Shown here: positions 42,055-45,548 of the stretch, one piece after another | Layout of the letters: each line of letters starts with the position of its first letter | Numbering within the stretch: the stretch's first letter is position 1 | DNA from: Candidatus Helarchaeota ASGARD archaeon Hel_GB_B | Lineage (GTDB): Archaea > Asgardarchaeota > Lokiarchaeia > Helarchaeales > HEL-GB-B | Length of the DNA stretch: 64,000 bases | Assembly (NCBI GenBank): GCA_005191425.1 | Contig: SUPR01000003.1 | Span: 1 to 64,000, forward strand | Direction of reading: 5' to 3' | Notes under the pieces: model-generated | The model's input: the letters and a program-made list of their open reading frames with translations, nothing else | Databases searched by the model: none | What the model was told of the DNA's origin: nothing | Made by a program: the position numbers and the translations under genes

Positions 42055-42627
42055 GTGATTAAAGAACTTATTAAAAATGTTAAAAATTTACTAAAAGAAC
42101 GTGGATTTGAGAATATTAAATCTGAAGAATCTTCAGATAAAGGCAAAATAATAATTAGGGCCGAATATAATCCATCTAAAAGCAGTAAACCAGAAAGTGT
42201 AATGGTCTATGTTTGGGACCCCGAAGAATCTGTCGGAGTTCAAGATGCAAGGGAAATCGTTAAAATATTTAAAAACACAAAAATAAAAAGACGATTTCTT
42301 GTTGGAGGTTCAAAATTCACTAGGATGGCTAGGATGCACTTAGAAGAAAATAAAGTGGAATATATTCCAACTGAATTAGTAATGTTAAATGTGTTAGAAC
42401 ATGAATTGGTCCCAAAACACAGAATTTTAGATAAAGAAGAGGCTGAAAAGTTATTATCAAAGCTAAAAATAGACAAATCTCAATTACCAAGTATTCTAGT
42501 TAATGATCCTGTTGCAAAAATAATTGGTGCGCGTGAAGGCGATATTATAGAAATAATTAGAGAAAGTAAAACTGCTGGAACATCAATAGCTTACAGACAT
42601 GTGATAAGAAATATAGAAGGAATTTAG
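42055..42627 (+). CDS. rpoH: RNA polymerase subunit H/Rpb5 with long N-terminal (jaw-like) domain (GTG start)
   Basis: C-terminus LEHELVPKHRILDKEEAEKLLSKLKIDKSQLPSILVNDPVAKIIGAREGDIIEIIRESKTAGTSIAYRHVI is canonical RpoH; N-terminal ~110 aa resembles eukaryotic Rpb5. Confidence 0.94.
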   Translation: MIKELIKNVKNLLKERGFENIKSEESSDKGKIIIRAEYNPSKSSKPESVMVYVWDPEESVGVQDAREIVKIFKNTKIKRRFLVGGSKFTRMARMHLEENKVEYIPTELVMLNVLEHELVPKHRILDKEEAEKLLSKLKIDKSQLPSILVNDPVAKIIGAREGDIIEIIRESKTAGTSIAYRHVIRNIEGI

Positions 42628-44771: not shown

Positions 44772-45548
44772 ATGGATTTGAAAATAGTCTTCCATAAAAA
44801 ATTTTTTAATGTCTATACAAATGATCCAGCAGCAAAATCTGGAAGATTGGAACCAATTATAAAAGAATTAAAAAGGCACCCTTCTGAATATGAAATTATC
44901 GAGCCAAAACCTGCTACTAAGGAAGATATTCTTCGCGCTCATACATTAGGACATTACAATGACATTAAAACAACTGATAATATTCTTGACTATGCACTGC
45001 TCGCAGCTGGTGGTGCAATAGCCGCTGCTGAACTTGCTTATGAAAATTACCCTACATTTGCTGTAATTAGACCTCCTGGGCACCATGCTTCATCAGATAG
45101 TTGTTGGGGCTTTTGTTGGTTTAATAATATGTCTATTTCTCTCTTAAAATTACATTCAGAAAATAAAATCAAATCTGCTTTTATATTAGATTTTGATATG
45201 CATTTCGGAGATGGGAATGTCAATATTCTTAGAGAGAATAAGCATCTAATAAAAACTGAAATTCTCAATCCAATAAGTCAAACCGAACAAGATTATCTGG
45301 AAGAAATAAATAATGCCTTTAACAACGCTGGAAAATATGATATCCTAGCAGCATCTGCAGGATTTGATGAGTATATTAAAGATTGGGGCGGAAAATTAAG
45401 TACTAATGCATACAATCAAATTGGGAAGCTAATGAAAGATTTTGCAGAAGATAAATGTAATGGTAAAAGATTTGGGATATTAGAAGGTGGATATTATACA
45501 AAAGATCTTGGAATAAATGTTAATTCTTTTTGTCAAGGTTTTAAATGA
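44772..45548 (+). CDS. Histone deacetylase-family (class II/AcuC-like) zinc deacetylase
   Basis: VIRPPGHHASSDSCWGFCWFNNMSISLL; AFILDFDMHFGDGN; ASAGFDEY; LEGGYY. Confidence 0.93.
   Translation: MDLKIVFHKKFFNVYTNDPAAKSGRLEPIIKELKRHPSEYEIIEPKPATKEDILRAHTLGHYNDIKTTDNILDYALLAAGGAIAAAELAYENYPTFAVIRPPGHHASSDSCWGFCWFNNMSISLLKLHSENKIKSAFILDFDMHFGDGNVNILRENKHLIKTEILNPISQTEQDYLEEINNAFNNAGKYDILAASAGFDEYIKDWGGKLSTNAYNQIGKLMKDFAEDKCNGKRFGILEGGYYTKDLGINVNSFCQGFK

Follow-up and report, generated by a model that had tools for sequence, protein, structure and literature searches.

A two-domain Rpo5 from a Helarchaeote with an N-terminal domain related to the eukaryotic Rpb5 jaw

The window, i.e. the whole 64-kb stretch of DNA that was analysed, carries on its forward strand a gene for the RNA polymerase subunit Rpo5 (RpoH) in which a complete N-terminal domain (N-domain) precedes the assembly domain (C-domain). 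The features of the gene are as follows.

42055..42627, + strand: rpo5 (rpoH), two-domain RNA polymerase subunit Rpo5/Rpb5, 190 aa, GTG start (PF01191, AF2/Foldseek)
42055..42387, + strand: N-terminal jaw domain, residues 1-111, homologue of the eukaryotic Rpb5 jaw with an inactivated PD-(D/E)xK (Mrr-like) fold
42100..42108, + strand: RG(Y/F) signature, R16-G17-F18 (yeast R26-G27-Y28; motif alignment)
42232..42240, + strand: VGV loop, residues 60-62 (yeast V88-G89-V90; alignment, PMC6690254)
42319..42330, + strand: TxxA motif, T89-R-M-A92, equivalent of yeast/human TPSA (alignment, PMC6690254)
42388..42420, + strand: domain junction NVLEHELVPKH, residues 112-122, at the same position as in eukaryotic Rpb5
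42388..42627, + strand: assembly domain at the C-terminus, RNA_pol_Rpb5_C (residues 112-183), followed by a short tail (PF01191)

Upstream of the GTG at 42055, the frame has no further ATG, GTG or TTG start before the preceding in-frame stop is reached. Residues 112-183 of the product match PF01191 at 107.4 bits (cut-off 23.5, E 3.1e-31), which places it in the Rpo5/RpoH/Rpb5 family, and the ∼110 extra N-terminal residues described in the first-pass annotation prove to be the 111 residues ahead of this match. When the whole genome (3.54 Mb, 94% complete) was searched with PF01191, this gene was the single match; it is therefore the organism's own rpoH, with no extra copy, and a second, short rpoH beside rpoB is ruled out. 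Nor is the extension chance readthrough, because homologous domains occur in 135 of 232 Asgard genomes. The nearest homologues are 33-44% identical over the N-domain or the whole protein, and those close relatives that have names are Helarchaeota (loci L110 and L111) which, according to kinship codes, belong to the same order as the host genome.

The gene is flanked by pus10, rpl21e, rpo4/rpoF and a DUF655 gene on one side and by genes for PRPP synthetase and a DnaJ-domain protein on the other; a histone-deacetylase-family gene (PF00850, E 1e-35) lies ∼2 kb downstream, at 44772-45548 on the + strand. The RpoB motif RHGxKG was sought across the 64-kb window and did not occur, which bears out the earlier remark that the gene lies away from rpoB. 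This setting is normal for the long form: short archaeal rpoH is usually beside rpoB (PMC10833476) whereas the long form is not, an rpoB-like ORF being found near rpo5 in 0 of 18 long-form loci versus 23 of 26 short-form loci (loci of at least 8 kb, crude motif test). Judging from these loci, jaw-bearing rpo5 appears to have left the rpoB operon in Asgard archaea and Bathyarchaeota alike. The neighbour genes of Asgard and Bathyarchaeal long-form loci were also compared, shared ones being a possible sign of vertical descent, and none was convincing.

In Pfam, the N-domain matches Mrr_cat (PF04471) at 26.6 bits (cut-off 21). The Rpb5_N model (PF03871, cut-off 27 bits) left the window protein unmatched, reached 23.5 bits with the top relative scanned singly, and gave sub-threshold chance matches only across 61 relatives; its cut-off is a detection threshold derived from eukaryotic sequences, not a defining structural feature. 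The Mrr_cat match is compatible with jaw identity because the N-domain of eukaryotic Rpb5 itself has a catalytically dead restriction-enzyme-like fold (PMC551604, PMC1185551, both citing Todone 2000). We searched the whole PDB with a profile of 54 aligned archaeal N-domains, from which the C-domain was excluded. The top 13 matches were all eukaryotic Rpb5 (best E 7.1e-9), the first non-Rpb5 match having an E of 0.055, and a profile built from six archaeal N-domains had the same outcome, with Rpb5 at 2.5e-9. As controls, a profile of four Mrr-type nuclease domains retrieved AF1548 from the PDB, with Rpb5 absent, and a profile of six standalone Mrr-like Asgard proteins retrieved nothing relevant. 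A single N-domain sequence searched against the PDB with phmmer gave no useful match, so the link to Rpb5 needs a profile. Alignment of Asgard to eukaryotic N-domains with hhalign gave probabilities of 96.9-98.0 and scores of 60-77, compared with at most 13.5 for column-shuffled and reversed controls; starting from the eukaryotic jaw, the scores were 76.7 (98%) for the Asgard N-domain, 44.1 for the Bathyarchaeal one, 31.6 for the standalone proteins and 18.8 for Mrr. Profile homology to the eukaryotic jaw was therefore found both in the PDB search and with hhalign, and computation shows that the N-domain is specifically related to the eukaryotic Rpb5 jaw and has a catalytically dead restriction-endonuclease-like fold.

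The AlphaFold2 (AF2) model of the N-domain (pLDDT 87.5) has the order alpha-beta-beta-beta-alpha-beta-alpha-beta-alpha. The alpha-beta-beta-beta-alpha-beta core order and the PF04471 match together assign the domain to the Mrr/PD-(D/E)xK group by fold and by family profile. With the N-domain alone, the Foldseek E for MspJI (4e-5) was slightly better than that for Rpb5 (5e-4), and Rpb5 had the best TMq (0.76; nucleases 0.44-0.62). The full-length model (pLDDT 90.4) matched Rpb5 chains end to end (∼205 columns, E 1e-14, TMq 0.77-0.79) but short archaeal RpoH over the C-domain only (TM 0.36), and the predicted domain arrangement is therefore that of Rpb5; the top 34 matches of this search were all cellular or viral Rpb5-type subunits, matched at full length. 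On the AF2 models, residues 1-111 are predicted to have the fold of a jaw and to sit with respect to the assembly domain as a jaw does, which disposes of the possibility, raised at the outset, that they form an unrelated fold. The proposed colinearity with the eukaryotic jaw is upheld by the N-only PDB profile, by hhalign with its controls and by this fold comparison, with one correction to the first-pass annotation: the N-domain has a restriction-endonuclease fold of the Mrr type in an inactivated form, and the eukaryotic jaw is known to belong to this fold class too (PMC551604).

The Arg of the RG(Y/F) signature is present in 57 of 59 Rpo5/Rpb5 N-domains (eukaryotes 5/5, Asgard 28/30, Bathyarchaeota 24/24) versus 1 of 10 Mrr relatives. 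A VG(V/I) loop is common to archaeal and eukaryotic N-domains, and yeast P86, which adjoins it, is a proposed DNA contact (PMC6690254). The Thr of the T..A motif was found in 30/30 Asgard, 21/24 Bathyarchaeal and 5/5 eukaryotic sequences versus 2/10 Mrr relatives, and the equivalents of yeast R26, T117 and A120 are kept across eukaryotes, Asgard archaea and Bathyarchaeota. The window protein has both the Thr and the Ala of the loop (T89, A92), the P and S of TPSA being variable; proline 118 is usually another residue in archaea, and the yeast P118T substitution leaves growth unaffected (PMC6690254). Conservation in the archaeal N-domain is highest in the TxxA stretch, and for yeast TPSA (117-120) a contact with the DNA in front of the transcription fork has been reported (PMC6690254); archaeal conservation thus peaks in the region with which Pol II touches DNA. 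None of the 54 aligned archaeal N-domains has either the catalytic Gln/Glu or the Lys of Mrr, which eukaryotes lack too, and the motif Asp is retained in 12 of the 54. The window N-domain has K, V and V at the positions of the D, Q and K of active Mrr, i.e. it lacks the catalytic residues.

A profile search (E<=1e-5) found the N-domain in 135 of 232 Asgard genomes, a count that includes a few standalone proteins among the weakest matches; in nearly all of the Asgard matches listed it lies directly upstream of Rpb5_C. It occurs in essentially every Asgard family, and in nearly all genomes of most of them, except Lokiarchaeales (families f4 and f5, labelled from the class that they share with Helarchaeales) and a few small families; the families tied to names through loci are Helarchaeales, Jordarchaeia, Sifarchaeia/Borrarchaeum and Thorarchaeia only, while Heimdallarchaeia are placed among f11-f18 by elimination. 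A split jaw gene in Lokiarchaeales was rejected: Mrr_cat had no match in the three Lokiarchaeales genomes searched, and for this reason the jaw looks lost in this group rather than split off. The Rpo5 of one genome (G164, locus L068, family f6) scarcely differs from the f20 protein, whereas other f6 members have the short form; it was left out as evidence because it is probably bin contamination. Among Thermoproteota, 73 of 400 genomes matched the N-domain profile. The strong matches (∼57 genomes, E<=1e-18) were frames of 180-232 aa with the Rpo5 layout, and the remainder were weak, standalone or large Mrr-like proteins; the named long-form genomes outside Asgard are all Bathyarchaeotes (including 'miscellaneous Crenarchaeota group-1'). 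In 397 genomes of a euryarchaeal phylum there were weak matches only, mostly large Mrr-type frames. Archaeal RpoH structures that have been solved are 77-84 aa long. The long form is peculiar neither to this genome nor to Asgard archaea, being found across most Asgard families and in Bathyarchaeota.

The long form itself varies. Several Asgard genomes have at least two N-domain copies within one frame in the profile search, and the Rpo5 of families f13 and f14 (L091, L092, L094, L096, L098, L099, L102, L107) is ∼440-500 aa long, with apparently three tandem N-domain copies before the assembly domain. In Thorarchaeota (f28, L120 and others) full-length rpo5 occurs twice, the two genes being tandem neighbours in many cases, and in the Helarchaeote G003 (L023, L051) two such genes lie ∼104 kb apart; these pairs could possibly encode polymerase variants with different jaws. 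Family f12 (L084, L086, L087, L093, L095) has an Rpo5 with a long, repetitive Lys/Ala/Pro-rich C-terminal tail resembling that of histone H1, and families f21, f23 and f24 (L097, L100, L101, L103, L105, L106) have an assembly-domain insertion of ∼20 residues (e.g. EELIKKYGKKFGE...) preceding the final strand. Five Thermoproteota genomes that already carry a long Rpo5 have a second N-domain paralogue in frames of 180-200 aa (G542:C34, G308:C21, G396:C35, G570:C2, G301:C29; E 1e-13 to 1e-18). Standalone Asgard proteins of ∼110-145 aa (L225, L233, L234, L245, L248, L249) carry an inactive Mrr-like domain with a V..W.R.VGV motif and are relatives of the Rpo5 N-domain by hhalign (98%).

The evidence is best read as common ancestry of the archaeal N-domain and the eukaryotic jaw. 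This reading rests on profile, motif and architecture and not on phylogeny, because trees of such short domains settle nothing: the unrooted maximum-likelihood tree of the N-domain (111 columns) puts the long eukaryotic branch weakly beside Mrr (support 37/78), the C-domain tree including short forms has too few columns (76) to resolve history, and AU tests on both trees rejected none of the tested groupings. A tree built on one such short domain can neither exclude independent fusion, in which archaea and eukaryotes placed different Mrr/PD-(D/E)xK domains in front of Rpo5/Rpb5 and arrived at a look-alike jaw by convergence, nor fix the direction. Such fusions could have drawn on the many Mrr-like domains of these archaea, and are compatible with the N-domain tree, which does not require one clade, and with the several Asgard families whose scores with eukaryotic jaws are no better than with Mrr (the archaeal family closest to eukaryotes is f12, at 55.8, the next being at 37.9; it has GVKTI in common with them). 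However, eukaryotic jaws score 76.7 with archaeal Rpo5 N-domains against 18.8 with Mrr and 31.6 with the standalone proteins, and R26, the T..A loop, the loss of the catalytic pair and the position of the junction would all need to have converged, so that we regard independent fusion as improbable.

Taken as a whole, the explanation that we consider very likely is that the gene encodes a two-domain Rpo5 with a DNA-holding jaw, and that this nuclease-derived domain was recruited before eukaryotes, inherited by them, and lost in Lokiarchaeales and a few other groups. By binding Rpo1C in the way known from other archaea, the C-domain would bring the N-domain into the position of a lower jaw where the cleft ends downstream; the Sulfolobus polymerase is open at this place, with Rpo13 occupying part of the space (PMC2675907). 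From its position and motif, and by analogy with Pol II, we infer that the N-domain would contact downstream duplex DNA, the TxxA and VGV loops touching it ∼15-20 bp downstream of the active site as TPSA does, and the jaw may help to hold downstream DNA during opening and elongation. The N-domain could instead be a nuclease or a docking site for an archaeal-specific factor, given its nuclease fold (PF04471), the motif Asp kept in 12 of 54 sequences and the binding of protein factors by the eukaryotic Rpb5 N-domain as well (PMC13257274). This we consider very improbable, as the catalytic Gln/Glu-x-Lys pair is missing from every one of the 54 archaeal Rpo5 N-domains, conservation at the surface falls on the DNA-contact loop and not on the former active site, and the arrangement with the C-domain is predicted to equal that of Rpb5.

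Under the jaw interpretation, a nuclease-family DNA-binding domain would have been recruited to Rpo5 and have lost its catalytic site before eukaryotes arose, perhaps in the ancestor of Asgard archaea or of Asgard archaea and Bathyarchaeota; eukaryotes would then have inherited the jaw, and Lokiarchaeales and a few other groups would have lost it. Transfer in the other direction, with archaea taking a jaw-bearing Rpb5 from a eukaryote and then spreading it, would account for the identical architecture but is extremely improbable: wide distribution (most Asgard families, in nearly every genome, and Bathyarchaeota) and deep divergence (archaeal N-domains are far more diverse, with ∼20% identity to eukaryotic ones) argue against a recent transfer, the C-domains do not group with eukaryotes in a weakly resolved tree, and archaeal long forms are not nested inside eukaryotic diversity in either the N- or the C-domain tree. 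The jaw domain therefore probably existed before eukaryotes, since it is found in most Asgard groups and in Bathyarchaeota. The first-pass suggestion to this effect stands as the best reading, with vertical ancestry, although not as proven.

Between 2009 and 2018, archaeal Rpo5 was stated to lack the jaw and the jaw was called eukaryote-specific (PMC2675907, PMC3906176, PMC6690254). We found no report of a jaw-bearing archaeal Rpo5 in the open-access literature (subscription journals and most preprints lay outside the scope of this search), and the available part of a 2026 survey of archaeal RNAP small subunits (PMC13257274) does not discuss one; priority is not certain. Should the jaw prove archaeal, then part of the Pol I/II/III core, with its grip on downstream DNA, is older than eukaryotes, and the jaw's descent from a nuclease domain can be traced in lineages alive today. 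Its occurrence in Bathyarchaeota is also relevant to the sequence of gains and losses at the TACK/Asgard/eukaryote junction, and the existence of lineages that have no jaw, one copy or three makes its role in promoter opening testable.

Among known systems, eukaryotic Rpb5 (RPABC1, yeast 1dzf) resembles the long Rpo5 in domain order, junction, fold and arrangement, and has in common with it the inactive PD-(D/E)xK jaw and the RGY, VG(V/I) and T..A motifs. It differs in sequence (∼17-25% identity to the archaeal N-domain) and in the greater length of the insert that separates the RGY motif from the second strand, while the long Rpo5 usually lacks the TPSA proline and the window protein falls below the Rpb5_N cut-off. 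Short archaeal RpoH/Rpo5 (Sulfolobus, Thermococcus, Pyrococcus; 77-84 aa) shares the C-domain, with 51-57% identity in the fold alignment, but unlike the long form has no N-terminal domain at all. Mrr-type restriction endonucleases (PF04471), AF1548 and MspJI share the fold and a significant profile match with the N-domain; however, the Mrr-type nucleases are without the RGY Arg and are not fused to Rpb5_C, whereas the window N-domain is without the catalytic D and QxK.
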